Shown here piece by piece: positions 7,503-17,378 of a stretch of DNA of 32,814 nucleotides. Position numbers and translations under genes: made by a program. The notes beneath the pieces were generated by a model, which had not been told where the DNA came from, made no database searches, and saw nothing but the letters and a program-made list of their open reading frames with translations. Within the stretch, counting starts at the first letter, position 1. Each line of letters begins with the position of its first letter. Source of the stretch: Sphingobacterium thalpophilum. GTDB taxonomy: Bacteria; Bacteroidota; Bacteroidia; B-17B0; Aurantibacillaceae. The stretch is taken from positions 1-32,814 of the forward strand of contig CALPON020000019.1 of assembly GCA_943325195.2 (NCBI GenBank), given 5' to 3'.

Positions 7503-8084
7503 TTAACGGCCTTGTCCGTTTGCGGGATTGCTTGTCTTCTGTGGTTCGGGCTGGAGCGTTCCTGGAATTTTTGCAAGTGGCATGGCGTCAAGTTTCTTCT
7601 TCACCGCCGTCAGCAGGTCATCTCCTGGCTCGGAAAACAAAATACTAGTGCGTCCCGGACTCGTGTCAACCACATAGCGGAAGCCCCCTTCTTTAGCCGC
7701 CATTTCAATGCCTTTTTTCGCTTTAATCAAGATAGGCGTGGTCAGCTCGGTCTGACGGACCCGGAAGTCCGCCTCCGCCTTTTGCTGAAAATCCTGAATA
7801 CGTTTTTGCAATTGCTGCAGGTCCTCCTGCTTGGTCTTCTTCAAAAACTCACTCATTCCCGGTTCTTTTGTCTGATAATCCTTGTATTTGGTCTCCAGTT
7901 CCAACTGCATGTTCTTCAGTTCTGACTCGAGTCCCTTTAAGTAATTATTAGCCGCTTCGGAGGCCGTTTTTGTCTCGGGCATGAGATTTATCAATGAATC
8001 GTAATTTAAGTGGGCTACTTTTTGAGCATTGCTGGGTAAGGCAAAAGCGAAAGCTAGCGCGAGGAAAAAAAATCGTGTCTTCAT
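7503..8084 (-). CDS. OmpH/Skp-family periplasmic chaperone, third paralog
   Basis: The 193-residue exported protein has signal peptide MKTRFFFLALAFAFALPSNA, cleaved before QKVAHLNYDSL. It then has a long Lys/Glu/Gln-rich coiled coil (about 40-135, e.g. LQQLQKRIQDFQQKAEADF) and a C-terminal strand segment FRYVVDTSPGRTSILFSEPGDDL, the usual Skp arrangement, followed by a Pro/Gln tail. Skp proteins hold unfolded outer-membrane proteins on the way to BamA. It is much closer to the paralog at 8239-8844 than to the one at 8865-9386: both share the mature start, MPETK and the LQQLQ.RIQDFQQKAE core. A terminator separates it from that paralog and a TATCTTTA box lies just upstream, so it may be a separate transcript with the MerR-type gene. 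Confidence 0.92.
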   Translation of the reverse strand: MKTRFFFLALAFAFALPSNAQKVAHLNYDSLINLMPETKTASEAANNYLKGLESELKNMQLELETKYKDYQTKEPGMSEFLKKTKQEDLQQLQKRIQDFQQKAEADFRVRQTELTTPILIKAKKGIEMAAKEGGFRYVVDTSPGRTSILFSEPGDDLLTAVKKKLDAMPLAKIPGTLQPEPQKTSNPANGQGR

Positions 8085-8101
8085 AAAGCGTTTATAGGCA
8101 G

Positions 8102-8109
8102 TAAAGATA
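8102..8109 (-). promoter_or_regulatory. Candidate -7 box for third Skp paralog
   Basis: TATCTTTA on the minus strand matches the Bacteroidota TAnnTTTG consensus at all but the last base and ends 17 bases before the ATG at 8084. It lies downstream of the terminator at 8204-8234, where a new promoter would be needed. A matching -33 TTTG was not found at the standard spacing. Confidence 0.4.
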
Positions 8110-8203
8110 GGTTATGGGAATAAATAAATAAAAATGGAGGATACGGGATGGGGGGGCCTGCAAATCCACAGCGATTAAAGCAAGCGTCGTCCCGATTGGT
8201 GAA

Positions 8204-8234
8204 ACAAAAAAGCCCTTCCGTTAAAAAGGGCTTT
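8204..8234 (-). terminator. Rho-independent terminator after second Skp paralog
   Basis: On the minus strand a 9-bp perfect stem (AAAGCCCTT at 8234-8226 with AAGGGCTTT at 8217-8209) encloses an 8-base loop and is followed by a T-rich tract (8208-8204 and beyond). It begins 4 bases after the stop codon of the gene at 8239-8844, the right place to end the uppS-bamA-skp-skp transcript. Confidence 0.85.
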
Positions 8235-8238
8235 CCGT

Positions 8239-8844
8239 TTATTTTCCAGGCGCTTTGCTGCCAGCTGGTTTTGGAGGGGACTTTATTCCTCCCGTTCCTT
8301 CTGGCTTGGTCCCGGGAACGACCGCTGCTGGCATACTGTCCAGTTTCTTCTTAACAAGGCCAAGAATATCATCCGAGCTTTCGCTGTATAACACGGTGGT
8401 GTTTTGCACACTTGTGTCCAATACATATTTATAGCTATTTTCTTTGGCCACTAATTCAATGGCTTTTTTCGCTTTTTCGAAAATAGGAGCTGTTAACTCA
8501 CCTTGCTTGCGCTTCACATCCATTTCCGCTTTTTGCTGGAAATCCTGAATCCGCGTCTGCAACTGCTGCAGATCTTCCTGCTTGTTCCGCTTGGCCAATT
8601 CACTCATGCCCGCTTCTTTTTCAAGATAATCTTTGTACTTATTCTCAAGTTCGGTCTGCATGGCGATTACTTCCTGCTCAAGGCCTTTGTAATAGACTTG
8701 TGCAGCCTCGGTAGCCATCTTTGTTTCCGGCATCATACTCACCAAAGAGTCGAAGCTAAGGTGTGCAATTTTTTGAGCCTGGCTAAAGCTAACGCAGAAA
8801 ATAGCAGCGATAGCGACAATACTTTTCTTTACTGGATTCGTCAT
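8239..8844 (-). CDS. OmpH/Skp-family periplasmic chaperone, second paralog
   Basis: The protein has 201 residues. A signal peptide (MTNPVKKSIVAIAAIFCVSFSQA) is cut before QKIAHLSFDSL. A Skp-like coiled coil follows (about 45-140, including LQQLQTRIQDFQQKAEMDV), then the C-terminal KYVLDTSVQNTTVLYSESSDDI, and a low-complexity Pro/Gly/Lys tail (about 175-201) that classic Skp lacks. The tail is basic and may help contact the membrane or peptidoglycan; that is inference. The gene lies 20 bases after the first Skp gene in the uppS-bamA cluster and ends in a strong terminator. It is the recent duplicate of the paralog at 7503-8084. Confidence 0.93.
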   Translation of the reverse strand: MTNPVKKSIVAIAAIFCVSFSQAQKIAHLSFDSLVSMMPETKMATEAAQVYYKGLEQEVIAMQTELENKYKDYLEKEAGMSELAKRNKQEDLQQLQTRIQDFQQKAEMDVKRKQGELTAPIFEKAKKAIELVAKENSYKYVLDTSVQNTTVLYSESSDDILGLVKKKLDSMPAAVVPGTKPEGTGGIKSPPKPAGSKAPGK

Positions 8845-8864
8845 CTATTATTTATGTTATGTTT

Positions 8865-9386
8865 TTATTTTTTGTAGCCCAAATATACAAGAACATCGTC
8901 ACTGCGATCGTATTTATTGTTGGCATAAAGCAGGGAAACTTGTCCCGACTTATCCATCACAAACCCCAGTCCGTTTTTCTCCGCCACAGCCTTAATGGCG
9001 TTGTAAACCTTGTCTTGTAAAGGTTTTACGAGCTCCTGGCGCTTTTTGAAAAGCTCCCCTTCCACGCCAAAGCGCTGTTTTTGCAAATCCTTGACTTCTT
9101 TTTCTTTATTAAGAATCTCGTTTTCTCGTTTCTTTTTCATCTCGTCCGTCAGCAAAATAGCATCGGCCTGGTAGGCTTTATACAATTTATCGACCTCCGT
9201 GTATTTAATATCAATTTCTTTCTGCCACTGCACACTTAACTTATCCAGTTCATTTTGTGCTGCTTTGTATTCTGGAATCTGTCCCATAATATAATCCGTA
9301 TCCACATACCCGAACTTAGCGCCCGATGCTTGCGCGCCTGCGAAGAAAGAAAGACTGATAAAAAGTGCGATCAAAAAATTTTTCAT
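8865..9386 (-). CDS. skp: OmpH/Skp-family periplasmic chaperone, bamA-proximal
   Basis: At 173 residues this is the usual Skp/OmpH length. The signal peptide is MKNFLIALFISLSFFAGA, followed by QASGAKFGYVDTDYIMGQIPEYKAAQ, the typical family start. A coiled coil (about 40-130) and the C-terminal GLGFVMDKSGQVSLLYAN complete the fold. It should bind outer-membrane proteins in the periplasm and pass them to BamA, encoded immediately upstream. The gap from bamA is 71 bases with no clear terminator. It is the most canonical of the three paralogs and differs markedly from the other two, which resemble each other. Confidence 0.95.
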   Translation of the reverse strand: MKNFLIALFISLSFFAGAQASGAKFGYVDTDYIMGQIPEYKAAQNELDKLSVQWQKEIDIKYTEVDKLYKAYQADAILLTDEMKKKRENEILNKEKEVKDLQKQRFGVEGELFKKRQELVKPLQDKVYNAIKAVAEKNGLGFVMDKSGQVSLLYANNKYDRSDDVLVYLGYKK

Positions 9387-9457
9387 GTTTTTTTAATTAC
9401 TATTAATCATAAAACGTGCCACGCATAATATTCTGCATCAATTAACATATTTTAAAA

Positions 9458-12058
9458 TTACAATTCTCCCAATGTTCCTCCAATGGTAAAGTGAAATTGT
9501 CCTTTTCCATTTCCGTTACTGGCATCAGTGCCCGGCACCTTATCAAAGCCCCAGCCATAATCTACGCCCAATAAGCCAAACATAGGAAGAAAAACGCGAA
9601 GACCAACCCCCGCGCTACGTTTCACATTAAAAGGATTAAAGGATTTAAAATTTGCCCAGGTATTCCCCGCTTCTGCAAAACCGAGCACAAAAATGGTCGC
9701 CTGGGGATTCAAGCTAATGGGATAACGCAACTCCATCGTATAACGTGCCACAATGGGATCGCCCACGCCTGACGAAACTGTATTGTCCTTGTACCCGCGC
9801 AGACCAATAATTTCCCGGGCCACAAAGTTCTGGAACCCACTAATTCCTGAACCTCCCATGTAAAACCGTTCAAAGGGTGAATAGCCCACATTTTTATTGT
9901 ACCGTGCCAGAAAGCCATAACCAACTTTTGTCCGTAAAACAAGATTGCGGGCTTCTTTTCCTTCTGCTGCCTTCTGGTTAGTCAACTGTGTAAACCACTC
10001 CATCGTGATTTTATACTTCTGATACTCAATGTAACGATAACGCTCGGCATCCGTCATCTCCGGATTATTATAATTCTTATTATTCACCAGGGAATAAGGT
10101 GGCGTGAACTGTCCCCCCAACACAAAATTGGAGCCGTGCTTGGGATAAATAGGCCCGTCAATAGAGTTACGGGAAATGTTTAGACCCAGATTCAAATCAT
10201 TTGCAAAACCGGATTTAAAAACAAATGCACCATAATTTATCAGCTCATAGTAGTTATAACTGATGTTGCTATACATATTAAAAAAATTGTCCGGCCACTG
10301 CAGTCTTCGACCCAGACCAATAGACCCTCCAATAATACTCATGCTGCTACGCGCAGGATTCGCCACCTTAACGCCATTTTCTTTTATAAATTTGGTTTGT
10401 GCGGTATTATTAAAAAGTGAATGGAAGGCAGAAATCGAAAGTGCGTTTGGCTTTTTGCCGCCTAACCAGGGCTCTGTAAAAGAGAAATTATAAGATTGAT
10501 AATAAATTCCGTTGGTCTGTGCACGAATGGCCAGCTTCTGCCCATCACCCGATGGTAATGGTCGCCAGGCCTCGCGTTTAAACATGTTGCGCGTCGAAAA
10601 ATTATTAAAGGTCACTCCCAGGGTACCAATAATGCCCAAGCCCCGCTGCTGTCCGGTAGAAGTATTGTAAATGTTTCTGCCGCCCCAGCCGCCACTCAAC
10701 TCCACCTGATCGTTAGCTTTTTCTTCCACAATGTATTCAATGTCTACGGTGCCATCTGCAGGATTAGGCGTCGGAATCACATTGAGTTTTTCAGGATCAA
10801 AAAAGCCTAACTGCGCTAACTGACGGTTCGTTCGGATAATGTCGGTTCGTCTGAATAACTGTCCAGGCTTGGTAAATATTTCTCGGTAAACAACATGATC
10901 ATTCGTCTTGTCATTCCCCTTAATTGTTATCTTGTTGATGGTCGCTTGTTTTCCCTCATACATCAAGACATCAAAATCAATGGTGTCGTTGTGCACATTA
11001 CTCTCCTGCTCATGCACCTGAAAGAACAGGTAACCATCGTCCAGATAAAGACTGGAAACGTCGTAGCCACTTGGGTTCATGTAAAGCTTCTGTTCCAACT
11101 TACTCTGATCATAGACATCCCCCGCCTTAATATTCAGCACCGTGTCCAGCTGACCGCTTCTATATTTTGTATTGCCAAACCAATTGAATTTTCCGAAGTA
11201 ATACTTATGTCCCTCATCAATCGTAATATCAATGGCCACGCGGTTATCACTGATAAAGTAGACTGTATCCTTTGCCACACGCGCATCGCGGTAACCCCTG
11301 GTGGCGTATTTTCCAGCGATGGCTGGCAGGTCTTTGTGCAGATTCTCCTCCAGGTATTTGGCAGAATTAAAAGGATTGTACCAGCGGAAGCGTTTACTGT
11401 CTTCCAGACTCCTTCTTAATTTCCATGCAGGAACCACCGTGTTGCCGGTAAAGTTGACCTCCTGAATACGGACCTTTCTGTTCTTTACCACCTCGATGGT
11501 GAGAATGGTATGTGGATTTTTCTGGGCCGTGTCGCGGACCTGCTCAATACGAACATCGTTATAAAAATAACCTTTGTCCAAATAATAATCGTGAACAGTA
11601 TTGCGAATGGTGCCGATCATATAATCCGTCACCACGCGTTCTTTCATTAAATGAATCTTTGCCCGGATATCATCAGCGTCGCTGCGCTTAACGCCTCCCT
11701 TAAATTTAAAACTCGTAAGACGGGGGCGCTCCACCACACGTATAATTAAATTCATCTGGCCTGAGCCGGCACTTTCACCCAAAATCTGGATGTCCTCAAA
11801 AAGACCCTGCTTCCATAATTTCTTAATGGCATCACTGGTTCGGTCTCCGGGGATTGTAATCTCCTCGCCTTTGGTAAGACCGCTAAAAAGAATAATCACA
11901 TTCTGATCGGTTGCACTTGCCCCCTCAACGCGGATAGCGGCAACTTTATATTTACTGCGATTTTTGGCTTGCGCCGTAAACAAACTGTCCGAACGCTGAG
12001 CATACACGAGCGTGCAAAGGGTATTGAAAAGTGCTAATAATGCCAGCTTTTTGATCAT
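9458..12058 (-). CDS. bamA: BamA, outer-membrane protein assembly factor
   Basis: The 866-residue protein has a signal peptide (MIKKLALLALFNTLCTLVYA, then QRSD), a row of POTRA domains (about 35-430; e.g. GLTKGEEITIPGDRTSDAIKKLW, VNFTGNTVVPAWKLRRSL) and a C-terminal beta-barrel. In the barrel, GGSGISGF and the L6-type motif LRGY (753-756, R754) match the Omp85 signature. It inserts beta-barrel proteins into the outer membrane. The length fits Bacteroidota BamA. The gene begins 3 bases after uppS and is followed by the Skp genes, an arrangement that pairs the insertase with its chaperones. The end, FTIGGTLGEL, finishes with Leu rather than the Phe common in proteobacterial barrels. Confidence 0.97.
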   Translation of the reverse strand: MIKKLALLALFNTLCTLVYAQRSDSLFTAQAKNRSKYKVAAIRVEGASATDQNVIILFSGLTKGEEITIPGDRTSDAIKKLWKQGLFEDIQILGESAGSGQMNLIIRVVERPRLTSFKFKGGVKRSDADDIRAKIHLMKERVVTDYMIGTIRNTVHDYYLDKGYFYNDVRIEQVRDTAQKNPHTILTIEVVKNRKVRIQEVNFTGNTVVPAWKLRRSLEDSKRFRWYNPFNSAKYLEENLHKDLPAIAGKYATRGYRDARVAKDTVYFISDNRVAIDITIDEGHKYYFGKFNWFGNTKYRSGQLDTVLNIKAGDVYDQSKLEQKLYMNPSGYDVSSLYLDDGYLFFQVHEQESNVHNDTIDFDVLMYEGKQATINKITIKGNDKTNDHVVYREIFTKPGQLFRRTDIIRTNRQLAQLGFFDPEKLNVIPTPNPADGTVDIEYIVEEKANDQVELSGGWGGRNIYNTSTGQQRGLGIIGTLGVTFNNFSTRNMFKREAWRPLPSGDGQKLAIRAQTNGIYYQSYNFSFTEPWLGGKKPNALSISAFHSLFNNTAQTKFIKENGVKVANPARSSMSIIGGSIGLGRRLQWPDNFFNMYSNISYNYYELINYGAFVFKSGFANDLNLGLNISRNSIDGPIYPKHGSNFVLGGQFTPPYSLVNNKNYNNPEMTDAERYRYIEYQKYKITMEWFTQLTNQKAAEGKEARNLVLRTKVGYGFLARYNKNVGYSPFERFYMGGSGISGFQNFVAREIIGLRGYKDNTVSSGVGDPIVARYTMELRYPISLNPQATIFVLGFAEAGNTWANFKSFNPFNVKRSAGVGLRVFLPMFGLLGVDYGWGFDKVPGTDASNGNGKGQFHFTIGGTLGEL

Positions 12059-12962: not shown

Positions 12963-13382
12963 CTAACTAGTGTGATCGGCGATAATCACCCACTTCCCTT
13001 CCAACTTCCGCCAGAGTAGACTGAAATGGCCCCCCACAGGCTGAGCTCTCTGCAAGTTCCACCTGCCCGTCACAAAAACATAATCATCACTCAGCTGTTC
13101 CAAACTCAGCAAGGTAAAGCCAAGCTGGCCCATTTTTTCTTTGGAATCATAACTCCTCTGATAATTGGCCAACGTGTTCTTCCAACCATAAGTCACGCCC
13201 TTGCTGCCTATAAATTTTAAACGCTCATCATTCCAGTAAGAATCCATAAAGGCCAACAGATCCCCCTTATTCCAGGCCGCCTCCTGATGCTTCATTAACA
13301 GACGGATTTGCGCCGTATCGGTCTGCGCCTTAACCAAGCCAAAAACAAACAAGAAACCAGCGATTAGGAATGCTCTGCTCAT
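12963..13382 (-). CDS. Secreted DUF4440/SnoaL-like (NTF2 fold) protein
   Basis: From the ATG at 13382 this encodes 139 residues: signal peptide MSRAFLIAGFLFVFGLVKA, then QTDTAQIRLLMKHQEAAWNKGDLLAFMDSYW, which is the helix and turn that open the DUF4440/NTF2-like cone fold. The Trp-rich end (FSLLWRKLEGKWVIIADHT) is also typical. No catalytic residues can be assigned; family members are often small-molecule binders or isomerase-like. An in-frame ATG at 13430 would add 16 hydrophilic residues ahead of the signal peptide and would place the coding start inside the likely metH promoter, so I reject it. The gene is divergent from metH. Confidence 0.85.
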   Translation of the reverse strand: MSRAFLIAGFLFVFGLVKAQTDTAQIRLLMKHQEAAWNKGDLLAFMDSYWNDERLKFIGSKGVTYGWKNTLANYQRSYDSKEKMGQLGFTLLSLEQLSDDYVFVTGRWNLQRAQPVGGHFSLLWRKLEGKWVIIADHTS

Positions 13383-13414
13383 CTTGTAAATGTAGTCAAT
13401 ATGTTGTACTTTTG
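13383..13414 (+). promoter_or_regulatory. Promoter of the metH leader
   Basis: TACTTTTG at 13407-13414 is an exact TAnnTTTG -7 element, with CTTG at 13383-13386, 20 bases upstream, as a near-consensus -33 element. Transcription should begin around 13420, just before the first strand of the riboswitch P1 helix at 13434. That placement supports both the promoter and the aptamer. Confidence 0.65.
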
Positions 13415-13433
13415 CTGCTCGTTCTTTCATAGT

Positions 13434-13587
13434 ACTTATTAAGAAAAGCAGAGGGATACGCCCTGTGAAGCTTTACCAACCCTTAAGGGAAAGATGAATA
13501 TTGAAGTGTTAATTTCACAATCATTCAATAGTTATAATTTCAAAAGAAGGTGGGAATTCGTTTCTGATTCATCAGAAAAAAATAAGT
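13434..13587 (+). promoter_or_regulatory. SAM-I (S-box) riboswitch aptamer with long P3
   Basis: The core follows the S-box. P1 is ACTTATT (13434-13440) with AATAAGT (13581-13587). AAGAA is the J1/2 segment. P2 is AAGC/GCTT (13446-13449, 13470-13473) with the kink-turn bases AGAGGGATACGCCCTGTGA inside. Then come CCAACC, P3, GGTGGGAATTC (13549-13559) with the conserved AATTC, and P4 TTTCTGA-TTCA-TCAGAAA (13561-13578). A loop-to-J3/4 pseudoknot is possible between ACG (13458-13460) and CGT (13559-13561). P3 is closed by CCTT/AAGG (13481-13484, 13547-13550) and spans about 70 bases with an internal TATTGAA/TTCAATA helix. SAM binding should switch off metH through the terminator downstream. Confidence 0.88.
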
Positions 13588-13635
13588 CGGAAAAAATTAG
13601 AATTTACAACGTTTAAAAAATAACAACTCAACTCT

Positions 13636-13668
13636 AATCCCTTCCGCAATAAACGGAGGGGATTTTTT
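13636..13668 (+). terminator. Riboswitch expression-platform terminator before metH
   Basis: An 11-bp stem, 13636-13646 with 13654-13664 (one G-T pair, 7-base loop CAATAAA), runs into a T tract that ends 5 bases before the metH ATG. The 5' arm is also complementary to 13588-13601 just after P1: 11 of 14 positions pair, with AAA facing CCC in the middle. That gives an alternative antiterminator fold. Low SAM would favour reading into metH; high SAM would favour termination. Confidence 0.85.
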
Positions 13669-13673
13669 ATTTT

Positions 13674-16600
13674 ATGAATAACATTACAACTGAACTAGAA
13701 AAACGCATCCTGATTATCGATGGTGCCATGGGCACTATGATCCAGCAATACAGCCTTGAAGAAAAGGACTATCGCGGTGCGCGTTTTGCAGATTGGCATA
13801 AGGATCTGAAGGGCAATAACGACCTACTTTCCATTACCCGTCCAGACATCATCAAAGCTATTCATAAAGAATATTTGAAGGCGGGTGCAGATATCATCGA
13901 AACCAATACGTTCAGTGGTACGCGCATCGCCATGGCGGACTACGAGATGGAAAGCCTCGTGTACGAACTCAATTACGAATCGGCCAAAATCGCCAAAGAA
14001 GCGATTGCGGAATTTCAAAAAGAATTTCCTGAATTTGCCGTTATCCCCAAATTTGTGGCTGGCTCCATGGGACCCACCACCAAACTGGCCTCCATGTCCC
14101 CCAACGTAAACGATCCTGGTTTCCGCGCTGTCACTTTTGATGACCTTGTAGAAGCCTACTCGGAACAAATTAAAGGACTTATTGACGGCGGTGCCGATCT
14201 GCTTTTATTCGAAACCATTACCGATACACTCAATGTCAAAGCAGCGCTCTTCGCCACCGAAGAGGTCTGCAAAAAATTAAATCGTAAAATGCCGGTGATG
14301 GTCTCAGGAACTATTACCGATGCCAGTGGGCGGACCTTAAGCGGACAAACGACAGAAGCATTTCTCAATTCGGTTTCACACGTTGAATTACTCAGCGTGG
14401 GCCTGAACTGCGCCATGGGAGCCAAAGACCTGCGTCCCTACCTAGAAGAGCTTTCCATGAAAGCGCCTTTTTACGTGAGCGCTTATCCAAATGCCGGCCT
14501 GCCAAACCAGTTTGGTGAATACGATCAGGATGCGCATGAAATGGGGCATCAGATTGAAGAGTTTTTAAAGGCAGGGTTTCTCAACATTGTCGGCGGTTGC
14601 TGCGGCACCACCCCCGCACACATTAAGCGGATCGCAGAACTGGCGAAGAATGCCAAACCTCGCAAAAAACCTCAGGGAGACCACCTCATGCACCTCAGTG
14701 GTCTGGAGCCTCTGACGCTGCGTCCCGAAAGTAACTTTTTAAATGTGGGAGAACGGACCAATGTAACCGGCTCTAAAAAATTTCTGCGTCTCATCAAGGA
14801 AAACAATTATGAAGAAGCGCTTAGCATTGCCCGAGACCAAGTGGAAGGCGGTGCTCAGGTAATTGATGTGAACATGGATGAAGGGATGCTGGACAGCGAA
14901 GCTGCTATGACCACCTTTCTCAACCTCATTGCTGCTGAACCGGATATCTCGCGCGTTCCCATCATGATCGATTCGTCGAAGTGGTCCGTAATCGAAGCCG
15001 GATTAAAGTGTGTGCAGGGGAAAGCTATTGTCAATTCTATCTCCCTAAAAGAAGGCGAGGATAAATTTATTGAACAAGCTTCAAAGGTGCGTCAATATGG
15101 CGCCGCAGTAATTGTGATGGCTTTTGATGAAGTGGGACAAGCGGATACCTTGCAACGTCGCATCGATATTTGCGGACGAGCCTACCGCATCTTAACGGAA
15201 CAGGTAAAGTTCCCTCCCCAAGACATTATTTTTGATCCGAATATTTTTCCGGTCGCAACAGGTATGGATGAACACCGCCGTAATGCGCTCGATTTTTTTG
15301 ACAGCACTAAGTGGATCAAAGAACATCTTCCCTACGCAAAAGTAAGTGGTGGGGTCAGCAATGTCTCTTTCTCTTTCCGAGGTAATGATCATGTGCGCGA
15401 AGCGATTCACTCTGCGTTTTTATACCACGCGGTGAAAAACGGAATGGACATGGGCATCGTGAATCCTTCTCAATTAGTGATCTATGATGACATAGAAAAA
15501 ACATTACTGGAACTGGTGGAAGATGTGTTGCTGGATCGCCGCGAGGATGCGACAGAGCGACTTGTCAGCCATGCAGAATCGCTGAAAGGCATCACCAAAG
15601 AAAAAACTGAAAAAGATGAGGCCTGGAGAAAAGGCACCGTGGAAGAGCGTCTGAGTCATGCCTTGGTAAAAGGTATTGTTGATTACATTGATGAGGATAC
15701 CGAAGAGGCGCGACAGAAACTTGGCCGTCCTTTGTATGTGATCGAAGGGCCCCTCATGGCGGGCATGAATGTCGTGGGTGATTTGTTTGGCAGCGGCAAA
15801 ATGTTTCTGCCCCAAGTGGTCAAGAGTGCGCGGGTCATGAAAAAAGCAGTCGCCTTTCTCGAACCTTTTCTACAGGCAGAGAAAGAAGAAGCCAGACTGA
15901 ATGGCACTGGTCAATTGCAACGTAGCAATGCGGGCAAAATACTATTGGCCACCGTAAAAGGAGACGTGCATGACATTGGAAAAAACATTGTCGGCGTCGT
16001 ATTAGCCTGCAATAATTTTGAAATCATTGACCTTGGCGTCATGGTCTCTAGTGATAAGATTCTGGATGAAGCCAGAAAACAAAATGTGGACATGATTGGT
16101 CTAAGCGGACTCATCACCCCCTCACTGGATGAGATGGTCCATGTGGCCAAGGAGATGGAGCGTCTCGGATTTAAGATACCCTTGCTCATTGGCGGTGCAA
16201 CGACTTCGAAGGTGCACACAGCTGTGAAAATTGCGCAAAATTATTCTGGACCAGTAGTGCATGTCAATGATGCCAGTAAATCGGTACCAGTTGCAAGCAA
16301 CTTGTTATCAGAAGATCAGCGAAAACCTTTTCTCACTGATTTATTAAAGGATTATGACCGCGTGCGGGAACAAAATAAAAATGCACAATCGCAAGCAAAA
16401 TTTATCACTCTGGAAGAAGCAAGACAAAATAAATTTGCGGTCGACTGGAAAGCCGAAAAGACAGCGCAACCAAGCTTCACCGGAACTCGGGTGCTGACTG
16501 ATTTTGACATGGAAGAGATTAAGGCCTACATTGACTGGACGCCATTCTTTCACAGCTGGGAATTAAAAGGCGCCTATCCCAAAATTCTGAATGATCCAGA

Positions 16601-17378
16601 GCGCGGAACGGAAGCGCAAAAATTATTTAAGGATGCGCAAGAAATGTTGAAAAAAATCATCACTGAAAAGTGGTTGCAGGCAAATGCCGTAGTTGGGATT
16701 TTCCCTGCCGCAAGCGTTGGAGCAGATGATATTGAGTTGGATTGGAAAGATGAAAAGGATCAGAACTACTTATTTCATACCCTCCGTCAACAAACGAAAA
16801 AACCAGCAGGTCAGGCAAACATCGCGCTTGCCGACTTTGTTCGTCCGAAAGAAAATGGACGTGGTAATGACTTTATTGGTGCCTTTGCCCTCACCACGGG
16901 TATCGGTATTGATGAACGCGTAGCGGCCTTTGAAAAAGACCATGACGATTACAGTGCCATCTTATTAAAAGCACTGGCCGATCGATTGGCCGAAGCCTTC
17001 GCAGAGCTCCTGCATAAGAAGGTCCGCACCGACTACTGGCCCTATGCTGCAGGTGAAACCCTAAGTAATGAGGAACTGATCCAAGAAACATATCAGGGTA
17101 TTCGTCCCGCCCCAGGTTATCCCGCACAACCTGACCACACGGAAAAAGAAACCATTTGGAAATTACTGGAGGTGGAAAAGAACACCGGCATTATCCTGAC
17201 CGATAGTTTAGCCATGGTGCCCACGGCGGCAGTGAGTGGACTATACATCGGTAGCGCGGCATCTCACTATTTTGGTATTGGTAAAATCACCAAAGAGCAA
17301 GTGGCAGATTATGCCGCCCGTAAAAACATGCCGTTTGAAGTCGCTGAAAGGTGGTTGGGACCTGCGTTGGGGTATTGA
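13674..17378 (+). CDS. metH: Cobalamin-dependent methionine synthase
   Basis: The 1234 residues match the full four-module enzyme (E. coli MetH is 1227). It transfers the methyl group of 5-methyl-THF to homocysteine through methylcobalamin. The homocysteine domain carries the zinc cysteines C246 (GLNCAMGA) and C309/C310 (GGCCGTTP). The folate domain follows from about 350 ([24 protein letters not shown]). The cobalamin cap and binding domain contain [11 protein letters not shown] with axial ligand H766, and [13 protein letters not shown]. The C-terminal reactivation domain contains DYWPYAAGE and [12 protein letters not shown] (from R1144), which bind S-adenosylmethionine. Start is the ATG at 13674, right after the riboswitch terminator, with no Shine-Dalgarno. 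All key residues are present, so the gene looks intact. Confidence 0.99.

Follow-up and report, generated by a model that had tools for sequence, protein, structure and literature searches.

A probable SAM-I attenuator upstream of metH in Sphingobacterium thalpophilum, with an enlarged but lineage-typical P3 arm and an apparently weak link between sensor and switch

In classic S-box attenuators the antiterminator overlaps the 3' strand of P1. Long peripheral arms in riboswitches are likewise familiar: according to the parts of Barrick and Breaker (2007; PMC2258182) considered here, many riboswitches accept insertions that are long and variable and typically form stem-loops, so that a long P3 is not by itself new. 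Repeats of the heptamer TAACTGA have been described in Beggiatoaceae, Cyanobacteria and five Bacteroidetes (PMC4679880, in the portion covered here); to the same extent, its main text does not contain the word riboswitch, and the part of PMC12121620 considered holds nothing on a repeat-filled P3. No repeat-filled P3 in a SAM riboswitch was found among the open-licence PMC literature matches listed, which is weak evidence of absence, and with the same reservation the repeat make-up and the turnover of P3 described below were not found in print among them.

The metH leader analysed here lies on contig CALPON020000019.1 of S. thalpophilum, in a window (the whole stretch of DNA that was analysed) of 32,814 nucleotides. 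It carries a SAM-I (S-box) riboswitch aptamer on the plus strand at 13433-13588, which matches the Rfam model RF00162 with 59.9 bits (E 1.2e-11). A preliminary description had proposed such a riboswitch and suggested the covariance search; the score came out above, not below, the gathering score of 44.4 bits, and the match spans the complete model (positions 1-108) upstream of a full-length metH, bearing the proposal out. The gene itself (13674-17378, plus strand) encodes a cobalamin-dependent methionine synthase of 1234 aa with the Pfam domains S-methyl_trans, Pterin_bind, B12-binding_2, B12-binding and Met_synt_B12, and a place upstream of a methionine gene is as expected for SAM-I. This aptamer is the sole RF00162 match found in the source genome, a 2.9 Mb draft in 217 contigs; many relatives have two, and a second could be missing from the draft. 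Elsewhere in the window, at 7503-12058 on the minus strand, three adjoining OmpH-family genes are found beside that of an 866-aa POTRA-domain protein (BamA-like).

The 5' strand of P1 (13434-13440) pairs with its 3' strand (13581-13587) in both the RF00162 alignment and the minimum-energy fold, and the four-way junction of P1 to P4 is likewise present in both. When 13433-13668 was folded without constraint, P1, P2, P3 and P4 appeared together with an 11-bp terminator at -50.0 kcal/mol. The L2 bases ACG (13458-13460) can pair with CGU at 13559-13561 to form the pseudoknot. The kink-turn region of P2 falls within the whole-model match.

For comparison, we searched the 87 genomes of the family (the order comprises the same 87), of which 77 had a match, giving 130 RF00162 matches in total. 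We examined 110 of the 130, including that of the source genome: all of at least 139 nt, those truncated to 85-97 nt and some of the usual short matches. The 20 left out are all of 111-136 nt, so the count of short-P3 metH loci may be too low. Sixty-nine loci were classed as metH-type, by tblastn evidence of metH downstream or, for three of them (L063, L078 and L080, where metH was not seen in the stretch), by hand on account of the leader; L035 is a duplicate of L034 within this set. The gene starts more than 500 nt past the aptamer match in 14 loci, including L037, L039, L043, L044 and L045. Five such loci were examined and have an intervening ORF of 251-258 codons, which in the three scanned (L037, L039 and L045) contains Pfam methyltransferase domains (Methyltransf_11). 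Downstream of the second, short SAM riboswitch of the family, several loci (L013, L015, L020, L025 and others) have an ORF of some 75-97 codons whose sequence is similar by eye; the one tested, that of L015, had no Pfam match. The pseudoknot bases, ACG in L2 and CGT in J3/4, recur in 67 of the 69 metH-type loci, the remaining L039 and L045 having been mis-anchored by the search pattern. The support for this contact is complementarity, with no covariation within the set because the bases are nearly invariant.

Upstream of the aptamer, a Bacteroidota-type promoter is predicted at 13384-13414 (plus strand) from its match to the consensus for this phylum, TTG followed by TAnnTTTG: TTG is at 13384-13386 and TACTTTTG at 13407-13414. 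The TAnnTTTG part, to which the count applies and not to TTG, occurs between 60 nt before and 8 nt into the aptamer start in 53 of the 69 metH-type loci, 45 of these having it 16-18 nt ahead of the aptamer; the reversed pattern occurs in 6/69. Between promoter and aptamer lies the conserved leader motif GTTCTTT (13421-13427, plus strand). In 67/69 metH-type loci it precedes the aptamer start by 0-7 nt, 4 nt being the commonest distance, and it also occurs in 6 of the 42 others, dropped metH loci among them. The motif is possibly boxA-like. The rRNA leaders used for comparison (16S genes were found in 3 of 8 genomes, and the G052 locus was left out as its stretch is incomplete) have GTTCATT in all four cases, two each from G003 and G004. 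None of the four has GTTCTTT closer than 260 nt to the start of the 16S gene, and in one it lies some 1000 nt ahead of that start. The promoter-like pattern combined with GTTCTTT was found at 18 places in 8 genomes, compared with 4 for the reversed pattern; five of the 18 precede the metH riboswitch and the rest precede mixed or unclear ORFs.

The P3 arm measures 70 nt (13481-13550, plus strand). Its inner helices, 13489-13492 with 13538-13541 and 13499-13505 with 13524-13530, had been proposed in the preliminary description for an arm of about 70 bases, and both were recovered in the unconstrained minimum-energy fold. The enlargement is real; the short hairpin taken there as the expectation is not the norm in this lineage, since an insert of at least 60 nt is carried by 62 of the 69 metH-type loci and a shorter one by 7. 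The suggested comparison of P3 lengths upstream of metH showed the long arm to be usual among family relatives. Between CAACC and GGTG, the 69 metH-type loci have a stretch with a median length of 85 nt; in the other SAM riboswitches of the family (36 of 37 measured; one duplicate locus) it ranges from 16 to 48 nt, with a median of 35. Five further metH loci (L004, L008, L009, L011 and L018), left out of the 69 when the extraction pattern failed on them, have a short P3 by eye. The stretch is short in the metH leaders of other Bacteroidota found by pattern among 80 related loci: it measures 11 nt in each of five Mucilaginibacter leaders and either 17 or 26 nt in those of Aquimarina. The long arms usual in the lineage rule out that the P3 expansion is an oddity of the source genome. 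A search of the class covered 295 genomes, with matches in 210. Of the matches listed, 13 of 126-194 nt were examined. Four of them (L256, L263 and the near-identical pair L257/L258) show a similarly repeat-like P3 by eye; in L260 and L262, P3 is long but lacks repeats of this kind, and in L261 it is P4 that is enlarged. Other palindromic repeats are also seen in arms of SAM riboswitches (the arms being assigned by eye), with CCCGATAGCTATCGGG in P3 of L024 and P4 of L064 and CTGAGCGGAGTCGAAG in P4 of L261.

In the relatives, P3 mostly forms an imperfect hairpin built from tandem units of 7 (sometimes 8) bases, mostly AT-rich. Over the 61 distinct long arms, the best period among 4 to 12 is 7 in 51 arms and 8 in 7, and the match averages 0.52, 0.52 and 0.47 at lags 7, 14 and 21, against a baseline of about 0.26-0.32 at lags that are neither these nor adjacent to them. 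The lag-7 z exceeds 2 in 50/61 arms and the fold z falls below -2 in 53/61. For P3 of the source genome, these values are 1.8 and -1.4, and no significant copy of it was found elsewhere in its own genome (best other match E 0.66); this shortened arm, with no clear 7-base signal, may be a decayed repeat. Copies of P3 in the other genomes queried differ in number. The arm of G020 has 23 further matches in its own genome, spread over 18 distinct places (E <=0.01; 40 of 71 candidates scored), and 5 in total across 11 other genomes, that of G051 has 3 further matches in its own genome and 1 elsewhere, and that of G067 has 1 weak further match (E 0.009) and 0 elsewhere. When P3 contains at least two AGTT heptad steps, the genome has more AGTT arrays elsewhere, with a median of 6 versus 1 (Mann-Whitney P 0.0014, 12 versus 50 loci, where related genomes are not independent and overlapping array registers are counted separately). 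Exceptions are G013 and G023, which are rich in AGTT heptads and have a P3 without that type. The reversed-pattern control exceeded the forward count in 8 of 87 genomes (G017, G018, G028, G029, G041, G055, G065 and G071); there the reversed AGTT unit is itself a 7-base array.

Turnover of the arm was analysed in 42 loci with direct metH, pairs being binned by metH DNA identity; P3 identities were computed with strict gaps, as cheap-gap scoring was too lenient (shuffled 0.61). In the 4 pairs with metH identity of at least 0.90, mean identity was 0.97 in the linker and 0.78 in P3, and in the 39 pairs at 0.85-0.90 it was 0.72 and 0.61. At metH identities under 0.85, linker and P3 alike come close to what shuffling gives (0.56 and 0.52, respectively) and are little informative. 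Thirty pairs selected for a linker identity of at least 0.8 have a mean P3 identity of 0.63, with 6 of them within one SD of shuffled. L061 and L071 even share a linker identity of 0.96, yet have different heptads in P3; counter-cases that keep P3 are L042/L057 (0.92) and L061/L066 (0.95). The pair identities thus indicate that P3 changes faster than the adjoining linker between close relatives. We tentatively suggest that P3 may repeatedly serve as a docking site for heptad-repeat hairpins that are dispersed and of a genome-specific type, swapped faster than the neighbouring unconstrained RNA, with sensor core and switch kept. P3 would be a peripheral arm that in this lineage is filled by tandem 7-base repeat hairpins and often replaced, presumably through some insertion or replacement process, and the repeats would be tolerated because P3 retains the base pairs adjoining the core.

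Tandem 7-base units are prone to slippage, and P3 could also grow and change by replication slippage inside the arm only, with no exchange with genomic repeats. Three of the four P3 queries, with few or no copies elsewhere, would fit this course as well; however, G020 has matches to its arm at 18 further places, with few in other genomes, and L061 and L071 differ in unit type despite their nearly identical linkers. We consider slippage alone fairly unlikely; the faster change of P3 may come from exchange with dispersed repeats or from slippage.

Between the aptamer and metH lies an intrinsic terminator (13636-13668, plus strand) with an 11-bp stem, a 7-nt loop and a T tract at 13663-13668 that stops 5 nt short of the metH ATG at 13674. 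A scan of 13350-13700 on both strands gave 2 terminator-like sites, its hairpin (13636-13664) among them, where shuffled sequences have a mean of 0.2. The competing antiterminator is formed by 13588-13601 and 13633-13646 on the plus strand, of which 13636-13646 doubles as the 5' arm of the terminator; 11 of 14 positions pair, as read from the sequence and checked by folding. The terminator hairpin, the antiterminator pairing and the spacing to the ATG had been described beforehand, and sequence, fold, terminator scan and covariation agree with that description. For the covariation analysis we aligned 66 of the 68 distinct leaders (L010 and L097 were left out as divergent), 64 being distinct in the aligned stretch. 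In the terminator, 93.3% of cells are paired, above all 500 shuffles and compared with at most 64.6% in slid versions, and 6 of 11 pairs show changes on both sides against a shuffled mean of 1.8 (0/500 shuffles as high). The antiterminator, including three pairs into P1, is paired in 83.9% of cells versus 78.7% in shuffles (0/500 as high) and 17.6-47.0% when slid, and 44 of its cells are changed on both sides versus 15.1 (0/500 as high). Two of the five measures applied to it were unremarkable: pairs with both-side changes (7 versus 5.6; 103/500 shuffles as high) and pair types (17 versus 14.8; 75/500 as high) do not stand out. Of the pairs tested, the outermost one (columns 5-82) has no support: 42 of the 64 distinct leaders leave it unpaired. 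Covariation in related leaders rules out a chance terminator or antiterminator.

The Rfam match, the metH domains, the covariation of both alternative helices and the upstream promoter motif support the reading of the metH leader as a SAM-I riboswitch with a terminator/antiterminator platform. Most likely, this leader serves as an OFF switch acting by SAM-dependent transcription termination; SAM binding and the direction of the switch would follow from the riboswitch family. With SAM bound, P1 would be held and the antiterminator disfavoured, and the 11-bp terminator would form just ahead of the metH start codon. Without SAM, 13588-13601 would pair with the emerging 13633-13646 and RNA polymerase would read through. 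The computed energies favour the terminator both with P1 (-50.0 kcal/mol, compared with -41.1 for P1 plus antiterminator) and without it (-48.6 compared with -40.0), so that in this model antitermination would have to rest on folding order.

A stem so close to the start codon could also act in translation, by hiding the ribosome site in read-through transcripts. An ATG, as a putative start codon, begins within 15 nt of the T run in 54/69 loci, and at 5 nt in the source genome; against this, a strong stem with a T tract is already what an intrinsic terminator requires, and some relatives have a longer spacer or another ORF between terminator and metH. We regard such a second role as unlikely.

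The preliminary description had placed P1 next to the antiterminator without overlap and left its effect on the choice between the two folds as a puzzle. The lack of overlap holds true, and is an exception that the source genome shares with L039 alone among the 64 distinct leaders. In the other 62, the antiterminator can take at least one base of the P1 3' strand, 56 of them in the main register and 6 (of the GTAGA type) in a shifted register assigned by hand. P1 and antiterminator are mutually exclusive in these relatives because both require the P1 3' end; the puzzle is thereby answered, since 62 of 64 antiterminators can invade P1 and the source genome has lost the pairs. At C13647 and A13648, the overlap pairing would need A or G and then C or T, as found in most relatives. 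At alignment column 7, C replaces T in six loci; five of them have G as both the P1 partner and the antiterminator partner, and the sixth has A at the P1 partner position. The commonest set at this column is A/T/A; of 65 loci with a readable motif, 36 have it. Adding the P1 strand to the antiterminator brings a predicted mean gain of -5.3 kcal/mol over 66 leaders and of -1.1 kcal/mol in the source genome, the smallest of the 66, tied with L039. Since P1 and antiterminator can coexist in the source genome, strand exclusion cannot account for coupling there. Sensor and switch in the source genome look unusually weakly linked, and loss of the shared stretch should weaken the coupling and make control probably leaky.

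Taken to its extreme, the same loss would mean that the switch is decoupled in the source genome, where the aptamer folds and SAM no longer governs termination. The overlap pairs missing only here and in L039 and the smallest predicted gain from P1 invasion would both agree with this. Nevertheless, the Rfam match, the antiterminator and the terminator are all retained, which argues for continued selection, and SAM could act via timing or sterically through the junction; we thus judge full decoupling improbable. That the long P3 is a selected functional domain (a second sensor, or a protein or RNase site) and not a set of tolerated repeats seems very unlikely, because the arm, although its length and hairpin character persist as its letters change (61 distinct arms of 65-115 nt, most of them with a low fold z), is below 60 nt in the seven metH-type loci, short by eye in five more, only 11-26 nt in the pattern-found Mucilaginibacter and Aquimarina leaders, and unlike between near relatives.

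Altogether, we consider it highly probable that this SAM-I riboswitch shuts metH off at high SAM by transcription attenuation, with a coupling that is weakened in the source genome and with P3 as a tolerated, repeat-filled arm. Its relatives form a natural series, in which one riboswitch in dozens of genomes has had a peripheral helix rewritten and the switch kept. This allows the tolerance of SAM-I to changes in P3 and the spread of intergenic repeats to be studied jointly, and the source genome offers a natural test of the extent of P1/antiterminator overlap that a SAM-I attenuator requires.

In kind, the metH leader appears to be an ordinary SAM-I OFF attenuator, with a P3 that is unusual but typical of the lineage and a weakness in coupling that is specific to the genome. 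It shares with the RF00162 model the P1-P4 match over its whole length, the pseudoknot bases and the terminator/antiterminator platform, and differs in the 70-nt P3 and in the base of that arm, which is CCA/UGG here and GCA/UGC in the model. Unlike classic S-box attenuators, the source genome has no overlap of P1 and antiterminator. As in the variable riboswitch insertions covered in the parts of PMC2258182 considered, a long non-conserved stem-loop occupies a tolerated site; compared with those, the insert of this lineage consists mostly of tandem 7-base repeats, recurs at one site and is quick to change. With the TAACTGA heptamers, as far as the portion of PMC4679880 covered goes, it has in common tandem 7-mers that are mostly intergenic, whereas the 7-mers described here are variable, occur as inverted pairs and belong to a riboswitch arm.
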